Source: Bacillus sp. RO3 (GTDB lineage: Bacteria > Bacillota > Bacilli > Bacillales > Bacillaceae_B). From it: 64,000 nucleotides of DNA. The notes below the pieces were generated by a model, which saw nothing but the letters and a program-made list of their open reading frames with translations, had not been told where the DNA came from and did not search any database. Below are positions 14,021 to 57,003 of the stretch, in pieces. The stretch lies in contig NZ_JAAXCV010000010.1 of the NCBI RefSeq assembly GCF_012911895.1, positions 1 to 64,000 of the forward strand. The letters are read 5' to 3'. Within the stretch, counting starts at the first letter, position 1. Each line of letters begins with the position of its first letter. The position numbers and the translations under genes were made by a program.

Positions 14021-14183
14021 GGGACGGACCTCTCGGGGGGATTAATCTCAAAACGCTCATACGTAAAAACAGGAGTAGGAAGCAGGTTCCAACTCCTATT
14101 TGTCGTTATAGTAGAACCATCATTTGTCGAAATACAGTATTTCCATGGGCAAGAGAATAGTTTTAATAGGAGGTCCGTCCCCC
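14019..14183. repeat. 165-bp segment bounded by inverted GGGACGGACCT repeats
   Basis: GAGGGACGGACCTCT starts inside the stop codon of the ComK-like gene, and its inverse AGGAGGTCCGTCCCCC ends at 14183. Between them lie two more hairpins: AGGAGTAGGAA...TTCCAACTCCT (14071-14098), which could terminate the upstream gene, and the perfect GAAATAC-A-GTATTTC (14129-14143). The layout resembles a small non-coding mobile or REP-type unit. See the other copies at 20850, 38751, 45395, 46560, 49404, 50793 and 56719. Confidence 0.7.
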
Positions 14184-20849: not shown

Positions 20850-20869
20850 AGGTCCGTCGGGACGGACCT
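20850..20869. repeat. Perfect 20-bp palindrome of the GGGACGGACCT family
   Basis: AGGTCCGTCGGGACGGACCT pairs nine bases on each side of GG. It lies between the ABC-transporter solute-binding gene and the SCO gene on the minus strand, about ten bases from the SCO ribosome binding site. As RNA it would be a tight hairpin able to terminate, protect the upstream mRNA end or lower SCO translation. Confidence 0.8.
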
Positions 20870-38750: not shown

Positions 38751-38814
38751 AAGGGACGGACCTTTATTCCTAGGAGCTGGTACTAGGAATTTGAGGTCCG
38801 TCCCTCTTTTTTAT
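38751..38814 (+). terminator. Terminator made from a GGGACGGACCT inverted repeat
   Basis: AAGGGACGGACCT (38751-38763) pairs with AGGTCCGTCCCT (38794-38805), with a nested perfect ATTCCTAG/CTAGGAAT stem inside, followed by CTTTTTTATTTT. The repeat-family word is here part of a strong terminator for the dehydrogenase gene. Confidence 0.85.
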
Positions 38815-39980: not shown

Positions 39981-40052
39981 GTGCAGTTCTGTTTTTTAAG
40001 AGAAAACGATTACAAATCTTTTAATCTATGAAAATCAAGGGGGACAAAGGGT

Positions 40053-41342
40053 ATGAAGAAATTTTTCGTTTTGATGAGCATCATTGCGACGTTGATCATT
40101 GCCGGGTGCAGCGCGGGAAGCAGTGGCTCCGGTGAAGGCGGGGATGGAAAGGTCACGCTGACAGCCTGGGCCTGGAATGTCAATGTCGGGGCATTGAATG
40201 AAGCGGTCAAGGAATATCAGAAGGATAACCCAAATGTGGAATTGAAGGTAGAGGACATCGGACGTCTTGATGTCTACGACAAGCTTTCAACAGGACTGGC
40301 TGCAGGTGGTGTCGGCCTTCCGGATATCGTCCTTGTGGAGGATGACCGTATTCACGGGTATGTGGAAGCCTTTCCTGAAGGGTTCCTGAATCTTTCTGAT
40401 AAAGGTTTCACAGAGCACGAAGAGAAGTTCCCTTCCTTTAAGAATGATCTGGCACAGGTAGAGGGTAACTACTATGCCATGCCGTTTGATGCAGGTCCGG
40501 GAGGCATGTTCTACCGCCGCAGCCTGTTTGAACAAGCAGGGGTGAAGGCTGAAGAGATCAACACATGGGACGATTTTCTGGAAGCCGGAAAGAAAATAAA
40601 GGAAGCAACCGGTTCTTATGCCATGCCTCTTGATATGTTCAAAGATGATCCGACTTTCCGTATGATGTTGAATCAACAAGGTGTGTTCTACTATGACGAA
40701 GAAGGAAACATCGACTTAACGAATCCTAAAGCGGTAAAAGCAATGGAAATCCAGAAGAATTTCGCAGATGCCGATTTGATTAAGAATGTGGACGGCTGGA
40801 ACGGTGTCGTATCTTCAACAGTCGATGGATCCGTCGCGACGATTCCATTCGGTGCGTGGTACTACGGTACGATCGTCGATCAGGCGAAGGATACAAGCGG
40901 TGACTGGGGAGTGTTCCTGCTTCCTGCTGTGGAAGAAGGCGGCAACCGCGCATCCAACCTTGGAGGTTCAAGCTGGATGATTCCGGCGGCAAGTGAAAAG
41001 GCGGATACTGCCTATGATTTCCTGGAGTACTTCTCCACAGATACCGATACACAAATCATGGCGATGGAGGATTACGGACTATTCCCATCCCTGAATACAA
41101 CCTATGAATCCGATGTCTTTAATGGCGAAGTGGAGTTCTTCGGCGGACAAAACATCTGGAAATTATTCGCTGATGAAATGAAGGATGTCCCAACGGCTTA
41201 TTACACGAAGGACTACTCACTTGCACTTGATGAAGCCATCAAAGCACAGGCGGATACGTTCAACGGCACGAAAGCCGGGAAAGCACTTGAAGACGCGGCG
41301 AAGCGTTTAAGTGACCGGACGAAACGGGAAGTTGCCAACTAA
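40053..41342 (+). CDS. Sugar ABC transporter substrate-binding lipoprotein
   Basis: 429 residues. A lipobox (LIIAGCSAG) gives a membrane-tethered lipoprotein. The mature part is a family-1 extracellular solute-binding protein: VTLTAWAWNVNVGALNEAVKEYQ, LPDIVLVEDDRIHGY, AMPFDAGPGGMFYRRSLFEQAG and SSWMIPAASEKAD. With two permeases and a GH36 alpha-galactosidase downstream, the ligand is probably a galacto-oligosaccharide such as raffinose or melibiose; this is inference from context. No ATPase is in the operon, so a shared MsmX-type ATPase elsewhere is expected. The ATG follows CAAGGGGG. Confidence 0.9.
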   Translation: MKKFFVLMSIIATLIIAGCSAGSSGSGEGGDGKVTLTAWAWNVNVGALNEAVKEYQKDNPNVELKVEDIGRLDVYDKLSTGLAAGGVGLPDIVLVEDDRIHGYVEAFPEGFLNLSDKGFTEHEEKFPSFKNDLAQVEGNYYAMPFDAGPGGMFYRRSLFEQAGVKAEEINTWDDFLEAGKKIKEATGSYAMPLDMFKDDPTFRMMLNQQGVFYYDEEGNIDLTNPKAVKAMEIQKNFADADLIKNVDGWNGVVSSTVDGSVATIPFGAWYYGTIVDQAKDTSGDWGVFLLPAVEEGGNRASNLGGSSWMIPAASEKADTAYDFLEYFSTDTDTQIMAMEDYGLFPSLNTTYESDVFNGEVEFFGGQNIWKLFADEMKDVPTAYYTKDYSLALDEAIKAQADTFNGTKAGKALEDAAKRLSDRTKREVAN

Positions 41343-41356
41343 TTTGTAATCGAATG

Positions 41357-41407
41357 AAAAAGAGGGTTAGGGCCAAAGGGTTCTTGTGGTCTCCTACTCT
41401 CTTTTTC
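41357..41407 (+). terminator. Intercistronic stem-loop after the binding-protein gene
   Basis: AAAAAGAGGGTTAGGGCCA pairs with TGGTCTCCTACTCTCTTTTT apart from small bulges. Partial termination here would give more binding protein than permease, a common arrangement in sugar importers. Confidence 0.7.
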
Positions 41408-41459
41408 TATAAAGAAATAGGGCGATGCTTCAGCTGCCTACAGGAAAGAAGGATGTTGT

Positions 41460-42314
41460 ATGAAAACAAAACCATATATCCCATATTTATTTATTGCACC
41501 GGCTGTCCTCCTGTTTAGTGTATTTATGCTTTATCCGATCATTTCTTCCTTGATTCTCAGCTTTCAAACGGGTCAGGGTGCCAATTTGACCTTTGTAGGA
41601 CTTGATAATTATAAACGGTTGCTGTCTGATGAAATCTTTCATACAGCCCTCAAGAATACCTTCATTCTACTCATCATCCAGGTGCCAGTCATGGTCCTCC
41701 TGGCACTCGTGCTCGCATCCTTATTGAATGCGGCATTGCTGCGCATGAAGGGTTTCTTCCGCGTCACCTTTTTCCTGCCGGCCGTCACCTCCCTGGTGGC
41801 CTATTCCATCATTTTCTCCATCATGTTGATGAATGACGGGGTAGTGAATCAGCTGTTGACCTCTTTAGGCTTCAAAGCGATTCCGTGGCTGAATGATCCG
41901 TTCTGGGCGAAGGCTTCCCTGATCATCGCCATGACGTGGAGATGGGTCGGGTATAACATGGTCATTTATTTAGCAGGCCTTCAGAATATACCTGAAGAGC
42001 TCTATGAAGCGGCAAGCATGGACGGTGCTTCCCGGGTCCGTCAGTTCTTCGCCATCACCATCCCGCAATTAAAGCCGGTCATCCTGTTTACGGTGGTCCT
42101 GTCGACCATTGGTACACTGCAATTATTCGATGAACCTTTCGTATTGACGAAGGGCGGGCCGAGTGATGCGACATTGACCATCGGGATGTATTTATATCAA
42201 ACGGGATTCCGTTACTTTGACTTCGGTTATGCTTCTACCATTGCGTATGTAATCGTTGTTTTAATCGGTATTATGACATTTATCCAATTCAAACTAACAG
42301 GTGATCAAGAATGA
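41460..42314 (+). CDS. Sugar ABC transporter permease (MalF/LacF type)
   Basis: 284 residues, six transmembrane helices and the coupling loop EELYEAASMDGASRVRQFFAITIPQLKP. It is the first of two channel subunits. The ATG at 41460 follows GGAAAGAAGGATG. It overlaps the next permease gene by four bases (ATGA), implying a fixed 1:1 ratio. Confidence 0.92.
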   Translation: MKTKPYIPYLFIAPAVLLFSVFMLYPIISSLILSFQTGQGANLTFVGLDNYKRLLSDEIFHTALKNTFILLIIQVPVMVLLALVLASLLNAALLRMKGFFRVTFFLPAVTSLVAYSIIFSIMLMNDGVVNQLLTSLGFKAIPWLNDPFWAKASLIIAMTWRWVGYNMVIYLAGLQNIPEELYEAASMDGASRVRQFFAITIPQLKPVILFTVVLSTIGTLQLFDEPFVLTKGGPSDATLTIGMYLYQTGFRYFDFGYASTIAYVIVVLIGIMTFIQFKLTGDQE

Positions 42315-43135
42315 GACAATCAAAACTGGGTAGAAAATTCGTTCTGTATATCGTATTAGCCATTGGCGCACTTATCTCTTTATTTCCTTTCTACTGGGCA
42401 GCGATCGGGGCAACGAATGAGAGTGGCAAGATGTTCTCGAAACCGCCTGTCCTTGTACCTGGTGAAAAACTGGTGGAAAACGTCCAGAATTTAAATGAAG
42501 CGATCGGCATCGGACGCGTGATGTTCAACTCCCTGTTCATCGCCATCGTGTATACCGTCCTGAGCCTGTTGATTTGTTCCATGGCGGCGTATGCCTTTGC
42601 CAAATTCCGTTTCAAAGGGCGCAATCTCATATTCGCGGTTTTCCTGTTATCCATGATGGTCCCGTACCACGCCACCATCATCCCGTTATTTAAAATGATG
42701 GCGGGGTTCGGATGGCTGAATACGTACAAAGCTGTCATCCTGCCTAATCTGGCGTATCCATTTGCGATATTCTTAATGAGGCAGAATATGCTGGCATTCC
42801 CGAATTCACTGATTGAAGCCGCACGGATTGACGGATCGGGGGAGTGGAAGATCTTTTTCAGGATCGTCATGCCGTCCATGAAACCGGCCCTTGCCGCCAC
42901 GGCGATCTTCCTGTTCCTGTATCAGTGGAACAGCTTCCTGTGGCCGTTGATTGCCCTGTCGTCCACGGATATGTACACATTCCCCGTGGCCCTTTCAAGT
43001 TTGTTCGGACTGTCCCGAATCGATTACGGTCAAGTGATGGCGGGCGTCACCATCGCCACCATCCCGATCATCATTTTCTTCCTGGCCCTTCAACGCCAGT
43101 TTATTTCAGGCATGCTTGGAAGTGCCGTTAAATAA
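42311..43135 (+). CDS. Sugar ABC transporter permease (MalG/LacG type)
   Basis: 274 residues, six transmembrane helices, with the family's conserved loop NSLIEAARIDGSGEWKIFFRIVMPSMKPALA. It pairs with the preceding permease in one importer. It ends 14 nt before the second alpha-galactosidase gene, so uptake and hydrolysis are in one operon. Confidence 0.92.
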   Translation: MRQSKLGRKFVLYIVLAIGALISLFPFYWAAIGATNESGKMFSKPPVLVPGEKLVENVQNLNEAIGIGRVMFNSLFIAIVYTVLSLLICSMAAYAFAKFRFKGRNLIFAVFLLSMMVPYHATIIPLFKMMAGFGWLNTYKAVILPNLAYPFAIFLMRQNMLAFPNSLIEAARIDGSGEWKIFFRIVMPSMKPALAATAIFLFLYQWNSFLWPLIALSSTDMYTFPVALSSLFGLSRIDYGQVMAGVTIATIPIIIFFLALQRQFISGMLGSAVK

Positions 43136-43149
43136 GAGGAGGATTCCCA

Positions 43150-45394
43150 TTGCCGATTTACATCAATGAAGAATGGCGTCAATTTCATTTACAGGGAAAG
43201 AACACAAGCTACCTCTTGACCGTTTTGAAAAATGGTCAGCTCGGCCAGGCTTACTTCGGGAAAAAAATAAGGCACCGCGATGACTTCTCAAGCCTCATCC
43301 AACTTCCTTCCGAGCCTCTGGGGAATGCATCTTTCCCTTTTGAAGGAGACCCTTATTTTTCCCTTGAATTCCTGAAGCAGGAGTATCCTGGGTTCGGGAC
43401 GAGTGATTACCGGGAGCCTGCGTTTGTCATCAAACATGAAAATGGCAGCAGGACGTCTCATTTCACGTTTAAAGAGTATCGGTTGGAGAACGGCAAGCCT
43501 CGTTTGGACGGTCTCCCTGCGACCTACGTGGAGGACAATTCAGAGGCTGAGACCCTCATTGTCACCCTTGAAGATGAGGTTGCTGACCTTGAACTGGATG
43601 TCCTCTATACGGTTTATCACGAGAGAGATGTGATGGTGAGAAGTGTCGAGCTTAGGAACAATGGGAAAGGGCAGGTGGTGATTGAGCGCTTGCTCAGTAC
43701 ATCTGTCGACCTGCCACATGCAGACTTTGACTTTCTCCATCTACACGGTGCTTGGATCCGTGAAAGACATGTGGAATGCCAGCCCCTCCGGAAAGGACTG
43801 CAGTCCATCGATAGTAAAAAAGGCGTTTCCAGCTCGAATCATAATCCGTTTTTTGCCTTGAAATCTCCCTGCGCTACGGAAAGCCACGGGGAAGTGTACG
43901 GTTTCAGCCTCGTGTACAGCGGGAATTTCTTCGGCGGAGTGGAGGTGGATGCCTACAACACCTCCCGTGCCCTCCTTGGGATCAATCCGTTTGGCTTCGA
44001 ATGGACTCTGGAAGGGGGCGGACGCTTTCAAACGCCGGAAGCGGTCATGGTCTATTCAGATACGGGTATGAACGGGATGAGTCAGCAATTTCATGACTTA
44101 TTCAGGACCCGTCTTTCAAAAGGCGGGTGGAGGGATAAGGAACGCCCCGTCCTGATCAATAACTGGGAGGCGACGTATTTTGATTTTGATGAAGAGAAGA
44201 TCCTCGGCATCTGCGACGCAGCTTCCACACTCGGAATCGAATTATTCGCCCTTGATGACGGGTGGTTCGGAGAACGGAATGATGATACCTCCTCCCTTGG
44301 GGATTGGACGCCGGACAGGAGAAAGCTTCCACGGGGAATCAAAGGCCTGGGTGAAGAGGTGGTGGAGAAGAAAGGGCTTAAGTTCGGGCTCTGGGTGGAG
44401 CCTGAAATGGTCTCGAAGAAGAGCCGCCTTTACGAAGAGCATCCTGACTGGGTCCTAGGAGTGACTGACCGCACCCTGTCTCACGGACGGAATCAGTTCA
44501 TCCTGGATCTTGCCAGGGAGGAAGTGGTGGATCACTTAGTTGAAACCCTAAGCGGGCTGTTCTCTTCTGCCCCGATTTCATATGTAAAGTGGGATATGAA
44601 CCGGAACATGACAGAAGTCGGATCCGCCTCGGTTGGCCGAGAGCGTCAGGGTGAGGTCGTCCATCGCTACGTATTGGGACTGTACCGGCTGTTAGACAGG
44701 CTGACTTCCCGGTTCCCCCATATCTTATTCGAATCATGTGCAAGCGGGGGAAATCGGTTCGATCCAGGGATGCTCCATTACATGCCCCAAACGTGGACGA
44801 GTGACAATACCGATGCCATTGAACGACTGAAGATCCAGTGGGGCACGTCACTCATCTATCCCGTTTCTTCCATGGGGGCACATGTTTCCGGCTCCCCCAA
44901 TCATCAGACAGGGCGGGAGACACCTCTTGACACCCGTTTTCATGCGGCCATGTTCGGAGCTTTCGGTTACGAACTCGATGCCACCTCGTTTACGGAAGCG
45001 GAAAAGGAAACCGTCAAGGATCAGGTACAGTTTTACAAAGACAATCGGGCCCTTCTTCAATTTGGCAGCTTCTACCGGATCCTTGATCCCTTTAAGGGGA
45101 ACGATACGGCCTGGATGGTCGTGGACAGCGAGAAGAGTGAGTCCATCGTGGCCTTCTACCGGACACTGGCGGAGCCAAACCCCGGACTGCTCCGGGTCCG
45201 GCTGCAGGGTCTCAAGCCCCATGCCTTATACGAAATCGCTCATACGCAGGAAAGAGTATACGGAGATGAACTGATGAACGCAGGATTGCTTCTTCCTCCA
45301 TTCTTTAACGGAACCGTCGTCACAGAGCAGACAAAGCTGAAAGGCGATGCCCGGTCCTGTATATGGAAACTCCGTGAAGTGAAGGAAGACCGGT

Positions 45395-45396
<2 letters not shown>
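43150..45396 (+). CDS. Alpha-galactosidase, GH36 (second copy)
   Basis: 748 residues, TTG start after GAGGAGG. It is a close paralogue of the enzyme at 26927, with the same N-terminal block (EFHLQGKN versus QFHLQGKN). The nucleophile is Asp482 (YVKWDMNRNMT) and the acid/base Asp552 (TSDNTDAIER), again 70 residues apart. No signal peptide. It hydrolyses alpha-galactosides brought in by the importer encoded just upstream. The two enzymes may differ in preferred chain length; the motif at the acid/base reads SDN here and SDD in the other. Confidence 0.93.
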
Positions 45397-46509
<1,113 letters not shown>

Positions 46510-46537
46510 AGAGTAGCCCCAATGGGTTACTCTTTTA
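46510..46537 (+). terminator. Rho-independent terminator
   Basis: GAGTA-G-CCC, loop AAT, GGG-T-TACTCTTTTATTTG, directly after the LacI stop codon. Confidence 0.85.
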
Positions 46538-46559
46538 TTTGTTTTTATCTCCCTCATTT

Positions 46560-46574
46560 AGAGGTCCGTCCCTC
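46560..46574. repeat. Single inverted GGGACGGACCT repeat
   Basis: AGAGGTCCGTCCCTC is the reverse complement of the copy at 45395. The two face each other around the LacI gene. Nearby at 46621 a cre-like GGTAGCGCTTACA occurs (minus orientation). Confidence 0.7.
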
Positions 46575-46722
46575 TTCGGTCATTCGCCGGAAAAAAATGT
46601 TTTCCCACCCTGATAACAAAGGTAGCGCTTACATTGGTTCTTGAAGAATTTCCCCTATTGACTTCCCTGTGGATACCCAGTATTATCCTGATTAAGGTAA
46701 AAATTTAGAAAATTACATACTT

Positions 46723-46829
46723 TTCATTATCCAGAGTGACCGAGGGATCAGGCCCTATGACGTCCGGCAACCTCCAGTATAGGAACGGTGCCAATTCCTG
46801 CAGAATGATTTCATTCTGAGAGATAAGTC
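46723..46829 (+). promoter_or_regulatory. SAM-I riboswitch (S-box)
   Basis: The conserved S-box words are in order: TTATCCAGAGTGACCGAGGGA, GGCCCTATGACGTCCGGCAACC, AGGAACGGTGCCAATTCCTGCAGAA and AGAGATAAG, the last closing stem P1 with TTATC. It binds S-adenosylmethionine and then favours the terminator that follows. It controls the methionine importer genes downstream. Confidence 0.96.
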
Positions 46830-46843
46830 GAGATAGACAGGCG

Positions 46844-46876
46844 ATGCTTCTTTCAGTTGAAAGAGGCATTTTTTTA
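46844..46876 (+). terminator. Riboswitch-controlled terminator
   Basis: ATGCTTCTTTC, loop AGTT, GAAAGAGGCAT, then seven T. The stem has a single G-U pair. It lies 15 nt after the SAM aptamer and 23 nt before the metN start: the expression platform. Confidence 0.92.
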
Positions 46877-46898
46877 TTTGGGAAAAGGGGTGTACAGA

Positions 46899-47912
46899 TT
46901 GATCGAGATCCGGAATTTGGTGAAGACGTATAAAACAAAGAAGCAAACGGTGGTCGGTGTGGATAACGTTTCTGTGAAGATCGAAAAGGGTGAGATCTTT
47001 GGGATCGTAGGATACAGCGGCGCAGGAAAGAGTTCACTGCTTCGCTGTCTGAATCTGCTGGAAACCCCGACTTCAGGGGAAATCATCATTGACGGACAGG
47101 ACTTCACAAAGCTCAATTCTAAGAAACTAAGACTGGCCCGTCAGAAAACGAGCATGATCTTTCAGCATTTTCACCTGATCAAGTCGAAAACGGTTTTTGA
47201 CAACCTTGCGTTTGCCTTGAAAGCGGCACGGGTGCCAAAAGGGAAGATCAAGCCAAGAGTAGACGAGCTTCTGGATATGGTGGGGCTGTCAGACAAGGCG
47301 GACGCCTATCCGTCCCAGCTCAGCGGGGGACAAAAGCAAAGAGTCGGGATTGCAAGAGCCCTGGCGAATGATCCATCGGTCCTGTTATGTGATGAAGCCA
47401 CGTCGGCACTGGATCCAAACACGACGAAGTCTATCTTGAAGCTGTTAAAAAAGATCAACCGGGAACTAGGCTTGACCATCGTGCTCATCACCCATGAGAT
47501 GGAAGTGGTGAAAGAAATCTGCGACCGGATGGCGGTGATGCAGGACGGAAAGATCGTCGAGGAAGGACCTGTTTATGACCTGTTTGCAGAACCGAAGCAG
47601 CCGTTGACGAAGCAATTCATTGAAACGATTCTGCAGTTTGAACTTCCGCCTCACCTCGTTCAATCCAGAAAAGGGAAGCTCATCAAAATCCAATTCAAAG
47701 GGACGATCGCTGAGGAAAGCGTCGTCTCTGAAGTGTTCCAGAGGTACAAGGTCCGGGGGAACATCCTTCACGGGAAGATTGAATATATCCAGGACGTTCC
47801 ACTGGGGATTTTCATCATGGAACTGATCGGCTCTCCTGATGAATTGGAAGCCGCGATCCGATATATCACGTTGAAGACGCAAAGCCTGGAGGTGCTTCTT
47901 GATGCTGCCTGA
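46899..47912 (+). CDS. metN: Methionine ABC transporter ATP-binding protein
   Basis: 337 residues, TTG start after AAAAGGGGTG (MIEIRNLVKTYKTKKQ). Walker A GYSGAGKSS, signature LSGGQKQRVGIARAL, Walker B SVLLCDEATSAL and the switch His in LITHEME are all present. A C-terminal NIL domain (about 260-337) is the methionine sensor that inhibits transport when methionine is plentiful. It energises uptake of D- and L-methionine with metI and metQ, and overlaps metI by 11 nt. The SAM riboswitch upstream confirms the substrate class. Confidence 0.96.
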   Translation: MIEIRNLVKTYKTKKQTVVGVDNVSVKIEKGEIFGIVGYSGAGKSSLLRCLNLLETPTSGEIIIDGQDFTKLNSKKLRLARQKTSMIFQHFHLIKSKTVFDNLAFALKAARVPKGKIKPRVDELLDMVGLSDKADAYPSQLSGGQKQRVGIARALANDPSVLLCDEATSALDPNTTKSILKLLKKINRELGLTIVLITHEMEVVKEICDRMAVMQDGKIVEEGPVYDLFAEPKQPLTKQFIETILQFELPPHLVQSRKGKLIKIQFKGTIAEESVVSEVFQRYKVRGNILHGKIEYIQDVPLGIFIMELIGSPDELEAAIRYITLKTQSLEVLLDAA

Positions 47913-48567
47913 TTCATTGACTGCGATTTTACCAGAGTTGAATAAAGCTTTTTTTGAAACGGTGTATATGGTAGGCATCTCCCTTGCCGTGGCGATACTG
48001 GTGGGGTTACCCCTTGGGATTCTCCTTTTTGTGACGGATAAGGGGCTGTTCTTACAAAATAGTTTGATCAAGAAGGTGGTTGGATTCGTCGTCAATATGG
48101 TGCGCTCCATTCCGTTCATCATTTTACTGGTGGCGCTCTTACCATTGACCAAGCTATTGACCGGGACGACGATCGGACCGACAGCGGCCTCCGTATCCCT
48201 CTCTGTTGCAGGGATTCCGTTTTTTGCAAGGATGGTAGAAACGTCTTTGCGTGAGATTGATAAAGGGGTCATTGAAGCGTCGGTTTCAGTGGGGGCAAGC
48301 CCCTGGATGATCATCAAGGACGTGCTGTTACCGGAAGCCCGTCCGGCGGTGATTCAGGCGATTACGATTACCACGATCAGTCTGGTTGCCTATTCCGCCA
48401 TGGCCGGCATCGTCGGTGGAGGCGGAGTCGGGGATCTTGCGATTCGCTTCGGGTATTACCGCTATGACAATACGGTGATGATCACCACGGTCGTCATTCT
48501 GATTTGCCTGGTTCAGCTCATCCAGTATACGGGTGATGTGTTTGCACGATTAGTCGATAAACGATAA
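47902..48567 (+). CDS. metI: Methionine ABC transporter permease
   Basis: 221 residues with five or so transmembrane helices. Conserved MetI blocks are NMVRSIPFIILLVALLPLTKLLTGTTIGPTAA and ASVSVGASPWMIIKDVLLPEARP (coupling loop). The ATG at 47902 has GGAGGTG seven bases upstream inside the end of metN; a TTG at 47899 is a weaker alternative. It is called metP in B. subtilis. Confidence 0.95.
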   Translation: MLPDSLTAILPELNKAFFETVYMVGISLAVAILVGLPLGILLFVTDKGLFLQNSLIKKVVGFVVNMVRSIPFIILLVALLPLTKLLTGTTIGPTAASVSLSVAGIPFFARMVETSLREIDKGVIEASVSVGASPWMIIKDVLLPEARPAVIQAITITTISLVAYSAMAGIVGGGGVGDLAIRFGYYRYDNTVMITTVVILICLVQLIQYTGDVFARLVDKR

Positions 48568-48588
48568 CTACTTTAGGGGGAACAAGAA

Positions 48589-49404
48589 GTGAAAAAGTGG
48601 ATTTTAGTAGTGGCATTAGCCGGAATCATGAGCATTCTTGCAGCTTGCGGAGGGGACAAAGCGGGCTCTGAAGATAACAAGGAAGTAACGATCGGGGCCA
48701 CATCGGGTCCGTACAGCGATATGGTGACAAAGGCGATTAAGCCTGGCCTTGAAGAGAAGGGATACAGTGTTGTCGTGAAGGAATTCAGTGATTACATCCA
48801 GCCGAATAACGCACTGGCTCAGGGAGATCTGGATGCGAACCTGTTCCAGCATAAGATCTATATGGAAACCTTTGCTAAGCAGCATAACATGGACTTATCA
48901 GAAGTGATTGTTGTTCCGACTGCACCGATGGGGATTTATTCGGAGAAGTTTGGTTCGATTGAGGAGATCAAAGAGGGTAGCGCCATCGCCATTCCCAACG
49001 ATCCGACGAACGCAGCCCGGGCATTTCAGATCTTGGAAGATGCGAAATTGATCACGTTAAAACCGGATACAGATCCATTGACGGTATCGGAAAAAGACAT
49101 TGCCGAAAACGTGAAAAACCTGCAGTTCAAACCTATCGAAGCGGCCCAGCTTCCAAGGGCCGTTGAAAGCGTCGACCTGTCAGCCGTCCCGGGAAACTAC
49201 GCACTGGCTGCCAAAATGGACCTACTTGACGCCCTTCAGCTTGAAGACATGCCGGATCAGTACCGCAACCGGGTCGTCATGAATACAAAAGACGCAGATT
49301 CACAATTGGCCAAAGACATCAAAGCTGTCGTCGAATCCGACCAATTCGAGAAAGTCATCGACGGAGAATTCAAAGGCTTCGGCAAGCCTGAGTGGATGGA
49401 GTAG
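48589..49404 (+). CDS. metQ: Methionine-binding lipoprotein
   Basis: 271 residues, GTG start after TTAGGGGG. The lipobox ILAACGG anchors it outside the membrane. The NlpA/MetQ fold shows ATSGPYSDMV, QGDLDANLFQHKIYMETFAKQH and AIPNDPTNAARAFQILEDA. It captures methionine for the MetN-MetI importer. It is the last gene of the SAM-riboswitch operon. A cluster of inverted repeats starts at its stop codon. Confidence 0.96.
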   Translation: MKKWILVVALAGIMSILAACGGDKAGSEDNKEVTIGATSGPYSDMVTKAIKPGLEEKGYSVVVKEFSDYIQPNNALAQGDLDANLFQHKIYMETFAKQHNMDLSEVIVVPTAPMGIYSEKFGSIEEIKEGSAIAIPNDPTNAARAFQILEDAKLITLKPDTDPLTVSEKDIAENVKNLQFKPIEAAQLPRAVESVDLSAVPGNYALAAKMDLLDALQLEDMPDQYRNRVVMNTKDADSQLAKDIKAVVESDQFEKVIDGEFKGFGKPEWME

Positions 49405-49557
49405 AGGTACGGACCTTTACATCGATCATTTGCAAGTAGAATGCAAGATGGACAAGGGCAAGAAGGATTTAGAGGGACGGACCTCAAAACACATCCTATT
49501 TAAGTGAAATGAGAAAGGGACGGACTTCCGGCAGAATGCGGAGGTCCGTCCCTCTTT
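49404..49557. repeat. Composite GGGACGGACCT repeat cluster and bidirectional terminator
   Basis: GAGGTACGGACCTT (49404, a variant) and AGAGGGACGGACCTC (49471-49485) are followed after about 30 nt by the hairpin AAGGGACGGACTTCC (49515-49529)/GGAGGTCCGTCCCTC (49540-49554), with tip G-GCA-GAA-TGC. The final TTTT could end metQ transcripts, and on the other strand those of the convergent SEC-C gene. Confidence 0.8.
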
Positions 49558-49560
49558 TAT

Positions 49561-50733
49561 TTAAAGACAGCATTTCTTGTATTTTTTGCCGCTGCCGCAT
49601 GGGCATGGGTCGTTGCGTCCTATCTTCTCTCCCGTTGAGACAGGTTCTGGATCCTGAAGGGGCTCTTGACCTATTGAGGCACGTTCTATTTCTTCAAGGA
49701 GGCTTCTCCACTCAGCGAGTTTCGGGTGATCGATGCCATTCATGATGCAGTTGACATATAATGACTCTTCAAGAAAGATCAGTCCATCATCGTATCCTTG
49801 TTCAATGAGCGCATCTATTTTAGGGATTGCATCCGTTGACAGCTGATGGCATAAATAATCAGCGATCAGTGTTTTTGCGAAAAGGTCATTTGTTTGATCA
49901 AACAATCTCAGTAACGCTTTTTCAGCTTCTTTGGTTTTGATTCTTCCCAGGACGTCAAGAGTATAGAAATAAGTGTTTCCGTGGAGGGCCACTTTTTCCA
50001 CCTCATGTACGACCAGGTCCGTCCCTATCTTCACAAGGGAATTGGCGACTTCCTCCAGCAGCAGATCACTTTCGTCGTCGTTTTTAAAGAATTCAACGAG
50101 TCCAGGGACCATGGTTTCTTCGCGGAGTTCCCCGGCCATATAAATCGTGAATATTTCGTTGAAACGATGGAAGCCTTCTTCCGCTCTAGCTTCGATTAAT
50201 TCCTCGAGTACTTCCCCGCTCTCAATGCCGCCTTTCTTGATTACCTCCCTGATGATTCTTTTACCGTAATCATAGTAGCCCTGATCATATTCATTTCTAT
50301 CCAGGTACATGACAACAACGTCCAGCTCCATATAAAGTTCATCCATTGTTAAAGAGGGGAGCTTCACGATCTTTTCCAATTGCTTTTCATCCACAAAAGG
50401 CCTTACTTCGTTTTTGTATTGAATCAATAAATCTGTATCGGCATTCGTGAGCAATTGAGTATAAAACGGTCGGTCCTTATCTTCTTTGCCCAGACTGTTC
50501 AATCGATTGACTACTTCTTTCAATCCGTCTTCATTCAGAGGCATGTACATCAATTGGGGAAGGATGGGGGAAGAGATTTCTGACACAGGTCCGCGGTCGA
50601 CGGCCTTCAACCCGGTCAAAAACGTATCTCCATCTACCAAATAGGTCTCCTCCAGCATTTCAATCGCATATCTCTGAACAAACGGATCTCCGCTCAAGAA
50701 ATAAGCCTCGACTCTTTTAACAAAATGACTCAT
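49561..50733 (-). CDS. HEAT-like repeat protein with C-terminal SEC-C zinc motif
   Basis: About 390 residues. Most of the protein is helical, with HEAT/armadillo-like pairs (for example [30 protein letters not shown] and [24 protein letters not shown]). It ends in [20 protein letters not shown], the SEC-C motif with its CxCx8CC zinc ligands, as at the tail of SecA. SEC-C proteins often bind SecB, ribosomes or other partners. The role here is unknown. The ATG at 50733 follows AAAGGATGATTGG; the ATG at 50751 is the longer alternative. The gene carries an in-frame copy of the 13-base repeat word at 50015-50027, encoding part of IGTDL. Confidence 0.8.
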
Positions 50734-50792
50734 CCAATCATCCTTTATCATGCTTTTTGTATTAGTGTAATGGGCGGAAGTGAAAAAAGAAA

Positions 50793-50874
50793 GAGGGACG
50801 GACCTTCCATCCCATAGATATACATTCTAAATGTGACAGGGACGGACTTCCACAGAATGTGGAGGTCCGTCCCT
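50793..50874. repeat. Composite GGGACGGACCT element, second copy
   Basis: GAGGGACGGACCTT (50793-50806), a 31-nt spacer, then the hairpin AGGGACGGACTTCC-ACA-GAA-TGT-GGAGGTCCGTCCCT (50838-50874). Order and spacing equal those at 49471 and 56719. It lies between the divergent SEC-C gene and rbsR promoter. Confidence 0.85.
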
Positions 50875-50899
50875 AATCATAGAGGTTTCTAAAAAAGGT

Positions 50900-50990
50900 T
50901 TGACAGACTACACTATGAGTAGTAGACTTTGTGTAACCGGTTACATTGAGTGTTCCGGTTTTGTTTTAACGATACATGTAACCGGTTACA
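50900..50990 (+). promoter_or_regulatory. rbs operon promoter with two perfect operators
   Basis: TTGACA (50900-50905), 17 bp, TAGACT (50923-50928) is a good promoter. TGTAACCGGTTACA, a perfect 14-bp palindrome, occurs at 50932-50945, over the start site, and again at 50977-50990, centre to centre 45 bp. The sequence also satisfies the cre consensus TGWAANCGNTNWCA. RbsR, CcpA or both could bind, and the spacing would allow looping. Confidence 0.85.
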
Positions 50991-51031
50991 CACCAGGAGG
51001 TTACTTGAATGAAGACGGGAGTGACCCTTAT

Positions 51032-52003
51032 ATGGTTACGATTAAGGATGTAGCGAAAGAGGCTCAGGTTTCGGTGGCTACCGTTTCCAGGGTTTTAAAT
51101 AATCAGGGGTATGTTCATGAAGATACGCGGGAGAAGGTCGAAGGGGCCATTGAACGCCTGCAGTATCGCCCTAATAATGTAGCGAGAAGCTTATTCAAGA
51201 AGAAATCGCGGATGATTGGATTCATTGTTCCGGACATTACAAACCCTTACTTCCCTCAGTTGGTCCGGGCAGTGGAGGATGTGACCAATAAAGCAGAATA
51301 TACGACTTTCCTCTGCAATAGCGATGAGGATATAAAAAAAGAACTGATGTACATGGAAAAAATGCAGGAGAATCATATTGATGGTGTGATCATCGTGTCG
51401 AACACACTGGAGCTTAAGCATATTGAGGGATTGAAGATCCCCATGGTGGCACTTGACCGCTTCTTTCATCAGAGCATTCCTTCTGTGACCATCGACAATT
51501 ACAATGAAGCCAGAAAAGCGGTGCGGCATCTCCTTGACAGAGGCTGTAAGCGGATCGCTCATATCCAGGGTCCGGAGTATATTGAAAATTCCAGGCTCAG
51601 ACAAAAGGCTTATGAAGATGAAATGAAGGAACAACGGTTACCGACGATCATGTGCAACGGGGAATATCATTTAAAGGATTCGGAAAGGGCGCTCATGGAA
51701 CTGCTCCAGTCATATCCTACCATCGACGGTGTCTTTGCAGGAAATGACGTGATGGCGGTAGGGGCTTTAAAAGCAGCCAGCCGGCTGAATCTGAAGGTTC
51801 CTGATGACTTGTCCATTATAGGTTTTGACGGAATTGAGTGGACAGAAACCGTTTCACCTGAAATCTCCACCATGGCACAGCCCATTTATGAAATGGGTAA
51901 AAAGGCGGCGACCATGTTGCTGGAGCTGATTGACGGCAAGAAGCTGGATGATGTTCATGTCGTGTTCAATACAGAGCTCATGGAACGTGAAACAACAAAG
52001 TAG
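51032..52003 (+). CDS. rbsR: LacI-family ribose operon repressor
   Basis: 323 residues from the ATG at 51032, which begins the helix-turn-helix [28 protein letters not shown] and has GGGAGTG upstream. Longer starts (a TTG at 51004 next to AGGAGG, or further up) would add residues not seen in the family and overlap the second operator. The effector domain shows IGFIVPDITNPYFPQLVRAVED and VFAGNDVMAVGALKAASRLNLKVPDDLSIIGFD. It represses the rbs operon until ribose or a ribose phosphate binds; the twin palindromes upstream are the likely targets. First gene of rbsRKDACB. Confidence 0.92.
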   Translation: MVTIKDVAKEAQVSVATVSRVLNNQGYVHEDTREKVEGAIERLQYRPNNVARSLFKKKSRMIGFIVPDITNPYFPQLVRAVEDVTNKAEYTTFLCNSDEDIKKELMYMEKMQENHIDGVIIVSNTLELKHIEGLKIPMVALDRFFHQSIPSVTIDNYNEARKAVRHLLDRGCKRIAHIQGPEYIENSRLRQKAYEDEMKEQRLPTIMCNGEYHLKDSERALMELLQSYPTIDGVFAGNDVMAVGALKAASRLNLKVPDDLSIIGFDGIEWTETVSPEISTMAQPIYEMGKKAATMLLELIDGKKLDDVHVVFNTELMERETTK

Positions 52004-52016
52004 GAGGGATACGCAT

Positions 52017-52886
52017 ATGATTACTGTTTTAGGCAGCATCAATATGGATTTGGTGACCGTGACAAAGAAGGATCCCTCCCTGGGAGAAACGGTGATGGGA
52101 GAACGATTTTCAACCGTCCCAGGAGGCAAGGGGGCGAATCAGGCGATTGCTGCAGCAAAACTTGGGGCAGATGTGCAGATGATCGGCCGGGTAGGGACGG
52201 ACCTTTTCGGAGAAGAATACATCCAGCACTTTCACAAACAGGGTATTTCTACCGCGAATGTGGAACCGGTTACAGATGAAAAAACCGGGATTGCAGCCAT
52301 TACGGTTTATGAAGGAGATAACAAGATCATTGTCGTACCAGGTGCGAATCATCACCTGACTCCTGACGTAGTGATGGCCCATAAAGACGATATTTTACAA
52401 AGTGACTGGCTGTTATTACAGCTGGAAATCCCCCTTGAAAGTGTTGGGAAGGCACTGGAAATCGCTCATGAAGGCGGAGTGAAGGTGATTCTGAATCCTG
52501 CTCCCTTTACAGGGATTCCTAAAGAATGGATCGGGATGACCACCTATATCACACCGAATGAATATGAGGCATCTGAGCTGATGAAGCTCTATGAAGGGGA
52601 CGAAGAAACTTCTGTCCTTTTACGGGAGAAGCTGGTCATGACGAAAGGACCTGAAGGAGTCGTCATTTTTGAAGGGGATCAAGAGGTGAACATACCGACA
52701 ATGAAAGTAGAAGCTGTCGATACGACAGGAGCAGGGGACACCTTTAACGGAGCTCTTGCCGTCGGACTGACAGAAGGGAAGACCCTGAAAGAAGCATGTG
52801 AATTTGCAGCAAAAGCAGCCGCTGTTTCCGTAACGAAATTTGGTGCCCAGGCTGGCATGCCGGAACGAAGGGAACTGGAAGGCTGA
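52017..52886 (+). CDS. rbsK: Ribokinase
   Basis: 289 residues. It phosphorylates ribose to ribose 5-phosphate with ATP. PfkB-family signatures: GSINMDLVTVTKKDPSLGETV, the GGKGANQAIAAAKLGA box, and the C-terminal DTTGAGDTFNGALAVGL with catalytic Asp. The ATG at 52017 follows TAGGAGGG; upstream in-frame ATGs would overlap rbsR. Bases 52192-52204 (TAGGGACGGACCT) reproduce the local repeat word in frame, encoding GTDL, a conserved ribokinase stretch. Confidence 0.96.
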   Translation: MITVLGSINMDLVTVTKKDPSLGETVMGERFSTVPGGKGANQAIAAAKLGADVQMIGRVGTDLFGEEYIQHFHKQGISTANVEPVTDEKTGIAAITVYEGDNKIIVVPGANHHLTPDVVMAHKDDILQSDWLLLQLEIPLESVGKALEIAHEGGVKVILNPAPFTGIPKEWIGMTTYITPNEYEASELMKLYEGDEETSVLLREKLVMTKGPEGVVIFEGDQEVNIPTMKVEAVDTTGAGDTFNGALAVGLTEGKTLKEACEFAAKAAAVSVTKFGAQAGMPERRELEG

Positions 52887-52913
52887 CTGTAATCGATAAC
52901 GAGGTGAGAGGAA

Positions 52914-53303
52914 ATGAAAAAGAACGGCATTTTAAATAGCGAGATTTCAAAAATCCTGAGTGACCTTGGACATACGGATTTTATCGTCATTGCTGATTGC
53001 GGACTGCCGATCCCTGATCATATCAGGAAGATCGACCTTGCCCTCAAACAGGGAGTGCCTTCCTTCATGGACGTTCTCCATGAAGTGGAACAGGATATGG
53101 AGATTGAAAGAGTGACGCTTGCTTCGGAAATAAAAGACTTCAACGGAGTGTTGGAGGATGAGGTGAGGCAAAAGCATGCTGCCGTTGAATACGTGTCCCA
53201 TGAGGAGTTCAAGAGTCTGACTAAAGGGGCTAAAGCCATCATCCGCACCGGGGAGGCCACTCCTTATGCGAACATCATTCTACATTCGGGAGTGATTTTC
53301 TAA
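52914..53303 (+). CDS. rbsD: D-ribose pyranase
   Basis: 129 residues. It converts beta-ribopyranose to the furanose form used by ribokinase. Conserved: [32 protein letters not shown] with catalytic His, and [18 protein letters not shown] at the C-terminus. The ATG at 52914 follows GGTGAGAGG. Its last stop base overlaps the rbsA start codon. Confidence 0.96.
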
Positions 53304-54805
53304 TGACGGGGAACCCAATTGTTGAAATGAAAAATATTCATAAATCCTTTTTCAATGTGGAAGTGTTAAAAGGGGTTGATTTTGACCTTGCAAAGGGTGA
53401 GATCCATGCCCTGATGGGGGAAAACGGCGCAGGGAAATCGACGATGATGAAGATCCTTACAGGCATACATAAGAGCAATGAAGGCGAGATCTATTACAAA
53501 GGGAAACCAGTGGAATATCAATCTCCCAAACAAGCAGAAAAAGACGGGATTGCCGTCATCCATCAGGAACTGAACATCATCCCCTATCTGACGGTCGCTG
53601 AGAATATGTTTTTGGGAAAAGAGCTGAAGCGGAGCCCGTTTGGCATTCTAAAAACAAAGGAAATGAAAGAAAAAACCCGTGACTATTTAAATAGGCTTGG
53701 CATTCATCTCGATCCTGCCAGGCTTGCAGGAGACCTTTCTGTCGGGCAGCAGCAGATGATCGAGATTGCAAGGGCGATTGCAGCGGATACAGAAGTACTG
53801 ATTATGGATGAACCGACCGCCGCCCTGACTGACAGGGAAATCGAGGCACTGTTTACAGTGATGGATGGTCTTCGTAAAGAAGGGGTTTCCATCATCTATA
53901 TTTCCCACCGGATGGAGGAAATCTTTAAGATGTGTGACCGGATCACGGTTTTGAGGGATGGTCAATCCATCGGGACGAAGGTGACGAGAGAGACGAGCTT
54001 CGAGGAAATCGTGAAGATGATGGTGGGGCGTGAATTAGGGGAACGTTTCCCTGAGAGGACGTCTGTCATTGGAGATGATCGGTTCAAAGTGGAATCCCTG
54101 AGTCACGACGGTGTGTTTAAGGATGTATCCTTTACGGTCAGGAAAGGGGAGATCCTTGGTGTGGCCGGCTTGATGGGAGCGGGAAGAACGGAAATCATGG
54201 AAACCATTTTCGGAGTGAGAAAGAAAACAGGGGGACGCTTGATCCTCGATGGGGAGGAGCTTCATATTCGAAAACCCCATCAAGCCATCGATGCCGGCAT
54301 TGGATTCATCACCGAGGATCGAAAGGATGAAGGCCTCGTCCTTCACCTTACCGTCCGGGAAAATCTTGCCCTCACCAATCTAAAAACGCTGTCAAAATCA
54401 GGGGTGGTTCAAGAGAAGAAGGAGAAGGAGTGGACAGAGGAGATGATCCGGAAGCTTCGGATCAAGACTTCAGGTCCTGAGCAGGAGGTCAAGTCCTTGA
54501 GCGGAGGGAATCAGCAAAAGGTTGTGTTTGGAAAATGGCTCGGCACACAACCGAAGCTCCTCATTTTAGACGAACCGACAAGAGGCGTGGACGTTGGGGC
54601 GAAAAAAGAGATCTACTCCATCATGAATGAACTGACGGAAAAAGGCTTTTCCATCATTATGGTGTCTTCTGAATTACCTGAAGTCCTGGGAATGTCAGAT
54701 CGCATCATGGTCATACACGAAGGTAAGGTGACAGCGATCCTGGATAAAGGAGAAGCCGACCAGGAAAAAATCATGGAAGCAGCAACAGGGGGTGCAAGAC
54801 AATGA
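53303..54805 (+). CDS. rbsA: Ribose ABC transporter ATP-binding protein
   Basis: 500 residues, two fused nucleotide-binding domains. The first has Walker [10 protein letters not shown], signature [14 protein letters not shown] and Walker [12 protein letters not shown]. The second has the degenerate Walker [10 protein letters not shown], signature [15 protein letters not shown] and [14 protein letters not shown]. This matches the sugar CUT2 class. It drives ribose import with RbsC and RbsB and overlaps both neighbours (1 nt with rbsD, 4 nt with rbsC). Confidence 0.96.
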
Positions 54806-55746
54806 ATAAAGTAAGCAAAAGTTTAGGTTCTCTGCAGAAGTTAGGGCCCGTGTTAGGCCTCATTGTGATTACGATTATATTAACGATTATGAGCCCGAAC
54901 TTCTTCACTGTAGACAATATGTTCAATGTATTACGACAGGTGTCCGTCAATGCCTTGATTGCATTTGGTATGACGTTCATCATCCTGACGGGTGGAATCG
55001 ATTTATCGGTTGGATCCATCCTGGCCCTTGCATCGGCCATCACGGCAGGATTGCTTGCGAGCGGAATGGACCCGATCCTTGCCGTCATGATCGGATTGCT
55101 TTCCGGGGCATTGATGGGGCTTGTGAACGGTCTGATCATCACAAAAGGAAAGGTTGCTCCATTTATTGCAACCTTGGCGACCATGACGATTTTTAGGGGA
55201 CTTACCCTCGTCTATACAGATGGCCGTCCCATTACAGGGTTGTCCGAGTCGGTGAGCTTTCAGATGCTCGGAAAAGGATACTTCTTCGGAATCCCTTTCC
55301 CGGTCGTGACTATGCTCGCTGCCTACTTCATTCTATTCTTTATTCTAAGAAAAACGACGTTTGGACGCGGTGTATATGCCATCGGCGGGAATGAGGAGGC
55401 TTCCCTGTTATCGGGTCTGAAGGTAGATCGTTTAAAGATGGGTGTATACTCCCTCACCGGTTTATTATCAGCTCTTGCAGGGATCATTTTAACTTCACGC
55501 CTGAATTCGGCTCAGCCGACAGCAGGTGCCAGTTATGAATTGGATGCGATTGCGGCGGTTGTACTGGGGGGAACCAGTTTATCAGGGGGAAGAGGCTGGA
55601 TCTTCGGTACGCTGATCGGAGCATTAATCATCGGTTTCTTGAATAATGGGCTGAATCTATTAAATGTTTCTTCCTTCTATCAGCAAGTGGTAAAAGGCGG
55701 CGTCATCCTTCTAGCCGTACTATTGGATAGAAAGAAAGCTGCTTAA
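54802..55746 (+). CDS. rbsC: Ribose ABC transporter permease
   Basis: 314 residues, eight to ten transmembrane segments. CUT2 signatures: [61 protein letters not shown] and [23 protein letters not shown]. The ATG overlaps the rbsA stop (ATGA). Homodimeric channel of the ribose importer. Confidence 0.95.
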
Positions 55747-55780
55747 TAATAAATCTATTGAAAACAAGGGGTGTAGGTAG

Positions 55781-56713
55781 ATGAAACGTATTTGGAAAAG
55801 TTGTATTGTGCTAGTGGTGATTTTATTGGTGAGTGCGTGTTCTTTAGAGCAGGGTGGAAGCGAGAAATCATCAGGTGATAACGGCAGTAAGGAAGGAACG
55901 AAGAAAATCGGATTGTCCATTTCCACGTTGAATAATCCCTTCTTTGTGACACTGCGTGACGGGGCGGAAGCAAAAGCAAAGGAACTTGGATTGGAGATTA
56001 CGACCGTCGATGCTCAGAATGATCCTTCGAAACAATTGAGTGACATCGAAGACATGATTCAGCAAAATGTCGATATTTTGTTGGTGAATCCGGCAGATTC
56101 TGCGGCCATCGCTTCAGCGATCCAGTCGGCAAATGATGCAGGAATTCCGGTCATCACCGTAGACCGGAGTGCCGAAGGAGGAGAAGTCGTTTCTCACATT
56201 GCTTCTGATAACACAGCAGGCGGGAAAATGGCCGGTGAGTTTATCGTTGAAAAGCTTGGGGATGCAGGCAAGGTAGTAGAATTGGAAGGAATTCCGGGAT
56301 CTTCAGCAGCCCGTGAACGGGGGAAAGGTTTCAACGAAGCAATGGACGCAGCTGACGGGTTCGAAGTGGCAGCCAAGCAGGCAGCGAACTTTGACCGTGC
56401 CGAGGGTCTATCGGTAATGGAGAACATCATTCAAAGCTCCAGCGATTTCAGTGCAGTATTCGCCCATAACGACGAAATGGCACTTGGCGCCCTTCAAGCT
56501 CTTGAGGCAGCGGGCATGAACGATGTGCTGGTAGTTGGATTTGATGCAACGGAAGATGCGGTGGCATCAGTCAAAGCAGGTAAAATGGCCGCAACCGTCG
56601 CCCAAAAACCGGAACTAATGGGCCAACAGGCTGCAGAAGCAGCCGCCAGCGTACTCGATGGTGAAGAAATCGAAAAATCCATCGCAGTCGACCTTGAACT
56701 GGTAACAGAGTAA
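55781..56713 (+). CDS. rbsB: Ribose-binding lipoprotein
   Basis: 310 residues with lipobox LLVSACSLE. The family-1 sugar-binding fold follows: IGLSISTLNNPFFVTLRDGAEAKAKELG, VDILLVNPADSAAIASAI, EGIPGSSAARERGKGFNEAM and AVFAHNDEMALGALQAL. It delivers ribose to RbsAC. The ATG at 55781 follows AAGGGGTGT. Last gene of the operon; a composite repeat with a terminator-like hairpin follows. Confidence 0.95.
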   Translation: MKRIWKSCIVLVVILLVSACSLEQGGSEKSSGDNGSKEGTKKIGLSISTLNNPFFVTLRDGAEAKAKELGLEITTVDAQNDPSKQLSDIEDMIQQNVDILLVNPADSAAIASAIQSANDAGIPVITVDRSAEGGEVVSHIASDNTAGGKMAGEFIVEKLGDAGKVVELEGIPGSSAARERGKGFNEAMDAADGFEVAAKQAANFDRAEGLSVMENIIQSSSDFSAVFAHNDEMALGALQALEAAGMNDVLVVGFDATEDAVASVKAGKMAATVAQKPELMGQQAAEAAASVLDGEEIEKSIAVDLELVTE

Positions 56714-56718
56714 TCATA

Positions 56719-56802
56719 GAGGGACGGACCTCTAAAATGGAAAATGAGAAATGAAATGTGAAAGGGACGGACTTCCGCAAAAAGCGGAGGTCCGTCCCTT
56801 TT
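56719..56802. repeat. Composite GGGACGGACCT element, third copy
   Basis: AGAGGGACGGACCTCT (56718-56733), a 28-nt spacer, then AAAGGGACGGACTTCC-GC-AAAAA-GC-GGAGGTCCGTCCCTTTT (56761-56802). The last hairpin with its T run probably terminates rbs. Spacer and order match the copies at 49471 and 50793, while the hairpin tip differs with pairing kept. Confidence 0.85.
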
Positions 56803-56880
56803 GTTACCAGAAAAATAATGAGCACAGTTTAAGAACGTTTGATAGAGACAAGGTCATCGTTCAGATTATCCAATTATATA

Positions 56881-56894
56881 TGTAAGCGTTAACA
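56881..56894 (+). promoter_or_regulatory. Consensus cre site
   Basis: TGTAAGCGTTAACA fits the cre consensus fully. It lies 110 bp before the nuclease gene start, upstream of a TATACT box at 56945-56950. CcpA probably links the nuclease gene to carbon status. Confidence 0.75.
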
Positions 56895-57003
56895 AATTTC
56901 CGAAAATTTACCCTGTTTTTACACTTTTATGACAATTCCTGTTGTATACTGGTAGATGGTGACGAATCTACCACTTTATTAATCTACGAACAGGGGGAAG
57001 AAA

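Follow-up and report, generated by a model that had tools for sequence, protein, structure and literature searches.

An 11-nucleotide word linked to a RAYT gene in Rossellomorea: a probable REP-type tag kept and rewritten in place

The first 64,000 nucleotides of contig NZ_JAAXCV010000010.1 of Bacillus sp. RO3 (hereafter the window), from a 4.22-Mb Rossellomorea genome in 34 contigs (G000 in our comparisons), carry repeated copies of an 11-nucleotide word, GGGACGGACCT, whose full arm approximates GAGGGACGGACCTC. We find that, with a probability of about 0.8, the word belongs to a system of the kind formed by repetitive extragenic palindromic (REP) sequences and the tyrosine transposase-like RAYT genes, with a new foot and with the word kept and rewritten in place; by analogy with the family, its RAYT, which we call RAYT-A, would recognise the word and would once have spread it. 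There is good support for GGGACGGACCT as the cognate tag of the RAYT-A lineage, which we consider very probable. The initial annotation, drawn from the window alone, had described a composite hairpin repeat resembling REP or bacterial interspersed mosaic element (BIME) units moved by RAYT transposases. The abundance of the word beyond the window was borne out, with 271 exact copies in the genome (137 on one strand, 134 on the other) as against none of the reversed control word. The suspected Y1/RAYT gene flanked by the same word was likewise found: of the three Y1_Tnp genes of this genome, each with different flanking words, RAYT-A (C4:15500-16102) has GAGGGACGGACCTC ... GAGGTCCGTCCCTC just upstream, whereas RAYT-B is flanked by words like AACAGGTAAA and the third, broken gene by GGGACAGGCAC. 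A GGGAC foot, with which the words of the RAYT locus begin, was also confirmed, though described REPs have GT[AG]G instead; the likeness to REP/BIME and RAYT holds for the link to a Y1 gene, but not for the three-arm composite as the unit of the family (see below).

Word and RAYT vary together across the genus. Among 36 genomes compared, 22 have RAYT-A orthologues (65–100% identity; in two pieces in G005 and with a stop in G012) and all 22 hold 252–374 copies of GGGACGGACCT, compared with 0–22 in all of the remaining 14; a RAYT-A match in CP128835.1 (Rossellomorea sp. AcN35-11) is 98% identical. An exact inward word pair lies upstream of the gene in 17 of 21 RAYT-A loci (L101–L121), the other four having a single exact arm or arms to either side. 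The 13 genomes compared at this locus largely share the order of genes around the RAYT (SNF2 helicase, phoA-like alkaline phosphatase, RAYT, a 160-aa gene, hutP and hutHUIG), so that the RAYT positions are orthologous; names of these genes and of the metQ-like, SEC-C, nuclease-like and rbs genes were assigned in G000 itself, and those in its relatives were given by similarity. At this locus, G023, G018, G002, G008 and G051 carry RAYTs that are 46–59% identical to RAYT-A, with hutU 87–94% identical. The word read from the G023 RAYT flanks, GGGACGTACCTT, occurs 217 times in G023 and at most twice in each of the other 35 genomes, while GGGACGGTTCTC, read from the diverged RAYT flanks, occurs 116 times in G018 and 118 in G002 (next, 46 in G049), and in G008 and G051 the RAYTs are flanked by GGGACTGTCCC, which recurs in the surroundings of that locus, the region to which this observation refers. 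The RAYT is missing from this position in G001, G020 and G045, where a search of the region for four words yielded one copy, in hutH of G001; GGGACGGGCCTT, guessed from relic sites, numbers 63 copies in G001 and 39 in G020 (next, 13). In all, four RAYT–word pairs occupy one orthologous locus, and a fifth word survives as a relic without its gene.

RAYT-A has PF01797 (Y1_Tnp, 52.2 bits) as its sole Pfam domain. Its HUH motif, H59xH61, and Y118-x3-NP motif are those of the family, H59, H61, Y118, N122 and P123 being invariant in 41 RAYTs. A family profile matched TnpArep 4er8 and nothing else in the PDB (E 1.1e-8), and the RAYT-A sequence alone, used without that profile, matched no PDB entry.

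Comparison of orthologous sites indicates that the words are changed in place by substitution, coding sequence included, with each species using its own dialect; words at matching sites inside other genes are unusual for a bacterial repeat. Among intergenic sites, the G023 word makes up both arms in that genome at the metQ site, where RAYT-A species carry GGGACGGACCT-type arms, and one arm at the site found at 20850 of the window, where the second arm is degenerate; in G023 it is absent from the hairpin site corresponding to 38753. Downstream of hutG, AAGGTCCGTCCC...GGGACGGACCTT in G000, G003 and G017 is matched by AAGGTACGTCCC...GGGACGTACCTT in G023 and by AAGGCCCGTC...GACGGGCCTT in the RAYT-less G020, where both arms are altered together, and the RAYT-A species G024 and G012 have different hairpins there. 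Within the phoA-like gene, the codons AGG GAC GGA CTT (a CTT variant of the word) in five RAYT-A species compared correspond to AGG GAC GTA CCT T in G023, which is the exact G023 word and changes RDGL to RDVP, to AGG GAG GGC CTT in G001 and to AGA GAC GGC CTT in G020, all without indels. Two more sites in this gene bear the word only in RAYT-A species, with amino acids that differ from those of the others (one is absent from G024 and one is a one-mismatch word in G000). On the opposite strand of the SNF2 gene, five RAYT-A species have the exact word at a site where G023 has its own exact word and G001 and G020 have neither; here the RAYT-A species are one codon longer.

The hut genes reveal how closely such words are kept. 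Five sites, in hutH, hutU (two), hutI and hutG, carry the exact word in 34 of 35 site-species from seven RAYT-A species versus one of 24 from five others, the one being hutH of G001, and G024 likewise has all five; hutH of G023, which has no word, was unaligned at the word site. A sixth site, a CTT variant in hutI, is kept in four of the seven. Off the words, 76 of 5355 11-nt windows of the hut genes are invariant in the seven species (1.4%), and codons with an invariant amino acid are identical in 13 of 18 cases within word codons (CTT site included) versus 279 of 1066 elsewhere. Not all coding words are so conserved, as that of the SEC-C gene is patchy among relatives, being present in G047 (a same-species relative of G000), G017 and G012 and absent in G042, G003 and G049. 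The origin of coding words by substitution fits either selection for a bound site or a drive biased by uptake or recombination, and our literature search found no described RAYT system with in-place dialect change in coding sequence.

Coding words are concentrated at the RAYT. In three whole contigs (386 kb), split into coding and non-coding with a simple open reading frame (ORF) caller, 79 exact copies comprise 65 intergenic, one at a gene edge and 13 coding, with non-coding sequence making up ~16% of the total. Seven coding words lie in the 20 kb around RAYT-A versus six in the other 366 kb, a 21-fold higher density. Words of all kinds number 15 within 10 kb of the RAYT versus 1.3 on average (11–18 in eight genomes examined). 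We did not retain a general clustering of words at the RAYT, given that other 20-kb windows of the same sample reach 12; non-coding words are a mere 2.5-fold denser there (P 0.016), and we therefore claim only the coding words as special to this locus.

On the reading we prefer, GGGACGGACCT would be the cognate tag of RAYT-A, a Y1 HUH homologue at an old locus beside hutP–hutHUIG. The protein would bind and nick the word in single-stranded DNA and would formerly have spread small palindromic units, and its presence would maintain and rewrite the words in place; in its absence the letters of the word would drift, with the pairing of the hairpin stem preserved. Old sites in the RAYT-A clade, many of which are terminator-like hairpins, retain the exact word, as does a group of coding sites close to the RAYT. 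As to how rewriting might proceed, we tentatively suggest a RAYT-guided drive, in which the Y1 HUH protein, whether domesticated or selfish, would favour DNA that carries its 11-letter word; point mutations yielding a full copy would then become fixed, not only in terminators but also, with altered amino acids, in coding sequence, at the highest density beside the RAYT, and a shift in specificity would replace the word genome-wide at the same sites. This remains a conjecture with some odds in its favour, although the odds are against it.

We know of no RAYT that acts as an uptake factor. A molecular drive like that of uptake sequences is nonetheless conceivable, if somewhat doubtful: the word would bias which incoming or recombining DNA stays, arising by point mutation and spreading, with the RAYT or a linked factor setting the specificity and word-rich surroundings aiding RAYT transmission. 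Coding words made by substitution with amino-acid changes, their exactness and the clade dialects would all follow, as would the inverted pairs whose terminator-like hairpins have unrelated tips and the coding-word density near the RAYT. The copy number is, however, low beside the 2742 DNA uptake sequences (DUS), one mismatch allowed, given for Neisseria meningitidis MC58 in PMC3630211, and some relatives have fixed-length units, the pattern of copied elements. Outward pairs of G023 have start spacings of 32 (16 pairs) or 40 bp (12 pairs) in 28 of 28 cases, with five inward pairs at 18–22 (among 100 of its 217 places), and 14 of 16 inward pairs of G018 are at 38 bp (among 52 of its 116 places); a 44-bp palindrome 3' of hutG also has many more matches in G023. 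These units look like copied REP/REPIN units. In G000 itself the 28 inward spacings are mixed (57 three times, 68 twice, 24–28 nine times, and others). A helical phasing of inward pairs was discarded: P was ~0.001 at 10.5 bp in G000, with the period picked afterwards, and other genomes gave a weak signal at another phase (P 0.107 at 10.5, 0.04 at 11).

Several observations weigh against a system in which RAYT-A recognises, once spread and now maintains the word. RAYT-A is largely, if not wholly, confined to one host clade, so that the split between 22 and 14 genomes does not amount to 36 independent tests; a host tree built from two genes places G024 and G046 outside the main RAYT-A clade, although both carry the gene, with 252 and 309 copies of the word, respectively; support near G046 is low (0.386). 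The broken RAYT-A of G005 and G012 coexists with 293 and 314 copies, and the 63 and 39 relic words of G001 and G020 are retained without a RAYT gene. As GGGACGGTTCTC also flanks longer RAYT-C genes of other species, G049 included, its pairing with a RAYT is less clean. RAYT-A scores 76.5 bits on NCBIfam NF047646 (REP_Tyr_transpos), just below the cut-off of 80, where RAYT-B of the same genome reaches 80.9. Coding words without indels are ill-matched to plain transposition, and in the aligned parts of G000 and G047 there is no word-bearing insertion, differences at words being point changes and a 16-bp deletion; current mobility in the RAYT-A clade is thus not apparent from this comparison.

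We also considered whether the words are binding sites of a regulator with clade-dependent specificity, the RAYT being a mere neighbour or itself regulating hut and genes close to it. As would be expected of such sites, the words keep their positions and orientation around the RAYT/hut locus, and coding words are conserved at synonymous positions; but in G046 no hut genes are seen in the 40 kb around the RAYT, although 11 words lie within 10 kb of it, the hut genes of G023 lack words, and many RAYTs elsewhere have flanking words of their own. We regard this explanation as unlikely, and hut regulation as the sole cause, which the G046 and G023 cases leave unsupported, was rejected.

The hairpins formed by inward arms (24 short ones genome-wide) have tips that are unrelated between sites yet paired: at 46 of 64 outer positions in 16 tips of at least 9 nt the bases are Watson–Crick partners, versus a shuffle mean of 23.8 and a maximum of 40 in 20,000. 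This upholds the earlier observation that pairing is kept though bases differ and is as expected for terminator stems. There is no need to take the covariation as selection on a mobile folded unit, because the stem persists at orthologous sites while the word follows the species; judged from their sequences, hairpins at such sites look like intrinsic terminators with a species-dependent word. Could the arms then be nothing but favoured stems of transcription terminators, with nothing mobile? T-tracts accompany 13 of 16 short hairpins of a 547-kb sample (both sides in eight, one side in five, neither in three), compared with 36% of 9184 sampled intergenic intervals (both sides 4%, one side 32%), folds are stable (z ~ −7) and orthologous stems are kept while letters differ. 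Against this, 104 of 136 arms lie outside short hairpins, words occur in coding sequence and are linked to the RAYT clade, and a terminator scan of 38600–57000 of the window gave 22 hits versus 19.4 ± 5.4 in shuffles, no excess. Terminators alone are accordingly a quite unlikely explanation.

In the window, matches to the word with up to two mismatches number 39, versus 15.0 ± 4.4 in shuffles, none of 100 shuffles being as high. All the intergenic arms claimed by the initial annotation were located, 0–5 nt from the positions first given, though with several variants rather than one (three ...CTT arms, GGTACGGACCT at 49406 and a collapsed pair at 20850), and two exact copies, both coding, had been overlooked. 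What it took for the repeat unit, the three-arm composite, is a single, local grouping of arms in the neighbourhood of the SEC-C gene. Composite L (49406..49552, +) separates the metQ-like (NlpA lipoprotein) gene, which stops at 49404, from the convergent SEC-C gene, and consists of the variant arm at 49406-49416 (GGTACGGACCT), arm1 at 49474-49484, arm2 at 49517-49527 (CTT), a tip and arm3 at 49542-49552 (−), followed by T-rich sequence. R1 (50795..50873, +; arm1 50795-50805, arm2 50839-50849 with CTT, arm3 50863-50873 on −) lies between the SEC-C gene and the rbs operon, and R2 (56721..56798, +; arm1 56721-56731, arm2 56764-56774 with CTT, arm3 56788-56798 on −) is 3' of rbsB. The shared architecture and the quoted tips are correct; the arm1-to-arm2 start spacings are 43, 44 and 43 rather than 44–45, with gaps of 32–33 nt rather than 28–31. 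On the + strand all three fold through arm2:arm3 stems (z −7 to −8), whereas on the − strand arm1:arm3 pairing prevails in L but not in R2.

That the composite is a mobile unit in its own right, as first proposed, rests on the form and spacing common to these three loci. The genome has only these three composites, however, all within one 7.4-kb stretch of the window. Arms elsewhere lack the composite spacing, which by the initial annotation's own criterion counts against the composite, though not against the word with its 271 copies in the genome. With a search pattern of arm1, 20–45 nt, arm2 ending CTT, 6–30 nt and arm3 (variants of which would escape), we found 30 composites in 20 of the 36 genomes, all 20 with RAYT-A, and 29 of the 30 are in the metQ/SEC-C region, the exception being on another contig of G014; by this pattern the RAYT-A genomes G024 and G046 have none. 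We judge the proposal very improbable and already largely refuted. At the metQ side, three arms are present in 20 of 30 genus loci examined, with spacers diverged and arms kept. In the regions compared, no SEC-C gene was found in G020, G023 and G045, which lack RAYT-A, or in G046, and in G012 composite R is directly 5' of the nuclease-like gene (57004 in the window), with no gene between. Between R1 and R2 (50900-56713) lies the rbs operon in G000 and G047, and M20-peptidase-like and transporter genes, labelled by eye, in G017, G003 and G049, which makes the composite a local feature of a site with variable gene content.

Elsewhere in the window, single arms lie at 14021..14031 (+) and 45397..45407 (+), directly 3' of the stop codons of ORFs 13451-14020 and 43150-45396, at 14171..14181 (−, a word match) and at 46562..46572 (−), upstream of a SAM riboswitch (46724-46829). 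The collapsed outward pair AGGTCCGTCGGGACGGACCT (20850..20869, without strand), with overlapping arms at 20850 and 20859, has 16 more bases in G047 and is an intact outward pair in G042, G017, G003 and G049. An inward pair (38753..38804, +; arms 38753 on + and 38794 on −), with an inner ATTCCTAG..CTAGGAAT stem and a T-tract, is 3' of ORF 37367-38746; the same hairpin occurs in the six RAYT-A relatives where the gene was found, with other arms in G020 and G023 and a plain hairpin in G045. The two exact coding copies are at 50015..50025 (−) in the SEC-C gene, in the sense of IGTDLV, where orthologues with and without the word align without length change, and at 52194..52204 (+) in rbsK (ribokinase), also sense (GRVGTDLFG as read in G047). 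The SAM riboswitch precedes met transport genes, and a c-di-GMP-I riboswitch lies at 14463-14547; no known RNA family covered the words in an Rfam scan.

Other features of RAYT loci deserve mention. The 160-aa protein adjoining RAYT-A (L061 11194-11676) has no Pfam match, and TGTCGAA precedes its gene in most RAYT-A species; we dismissed it as a RAYT partner, as it is present at the locus in the RAYT-less G001 and G020 and was not found beside the RAYT in G008 and G051. In 20 of 21 RAYT-A loci (L101–L121), TGTCGAA, the core of the Spo0A box according to PMC3485338, occurs upstream with the same orientation, mostly 39–60 nt before the called RAYT starts. It occurs within 300 nt of 25 of 37 other short RAYTs (22 of them at 39–60 nt) versus two of 12 long ones (at least 229 aa), in a count that also took in L062, L122–L130 and L201–L240, left out the broken L063 and L126 and includes many orthologues, which are not independent. 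A literature search for Spo0A together with RAYT found nothing; if real, these candidate boxes would link RAYT genes to sporulation or transition-state control. RAYTs of G050, G008 and G051 (L130, L213, L221) stand in arrays of GAGCCTGGCTC words, with up to 18 10-mer matches within 700 nt either side, and words of the GTGCCAGGCAC or TTCACCAGCTGAA type accompany other RAYTs. In G042 (C1:757-880 kb) and G004 (C1:279-479 kb), second GGGACGGTTCTC clusters lie far from RAYT-C, with no RAYT listed there.

The matching of a RAYT to its word is usually deduced from flanking repeats. Here, one orthologous locus offers several dialects within one genus, outside the GTAG class, which permits a pairwise comparison of words with specificity residues. 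In-place change of coding words in each species' dialect is not an outcome of transposition and needs a mechanism; be it a drive or strong selection on the word, this would, if true, be new for the RAYT protein family as far as we are aware.

DNA uptake sequences and uptake signal sequences (USS) also form inverted pairs at terminators. Like the words described here, whose coding copies are made by substitution, DUS/USS dialects (PMC3630211) are exact 10–12-mers with clade-specific forms and coding copies, but our word is linked to a RAYT rather than to ComP, has several-fold fewer copies and in some clades forms fixed-length units. TIRtrons/TIRYT (PMC3733652) and TnpA-Y1 subclass 2.1 (PMC6006769) resemble RAYT-A in being RAYT-like genes with inverted-repeat flanks and without GTAG REPs, and TIRYT flanking repeats may build moderately abundant families, in dimers or clusters (PMC3733652). 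However, GGGACGGACC does not fit the motif GGGGWSAS given there for some terminal inverted repeats (TIRs), and RAYT-A, in which Pfam shows Y1_Tnp only, has no match there to the C-terminal helix-turn-helix (HTH) domain of TIRYT; subclass 2.1, compared with RAYT-A by description only, is reported without REP-like sequences in PMC6006769. REP/REPIN sequences with RAYT (TnpA-REP), class 2 in PMC6006769, differ in their GT[AG]G foot, in place of GGGAC, and in that a single arm here is no palindrome (GGGACTGTCCC is nearly so) and words switch dialect by substitution at matching coding positions; residues W94, E100, H101 and R104, which contact GTAG in the Escherichia coli RAYT (PMC6006769), align with F, S, T and D in RAYT-A. 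In common with our system, they comprise short repeats that flank a low-copy Y1 HUH gene, one word to each RAYT, with several families per genome that are mostly intergenic and arranged in inward and outward pairs.

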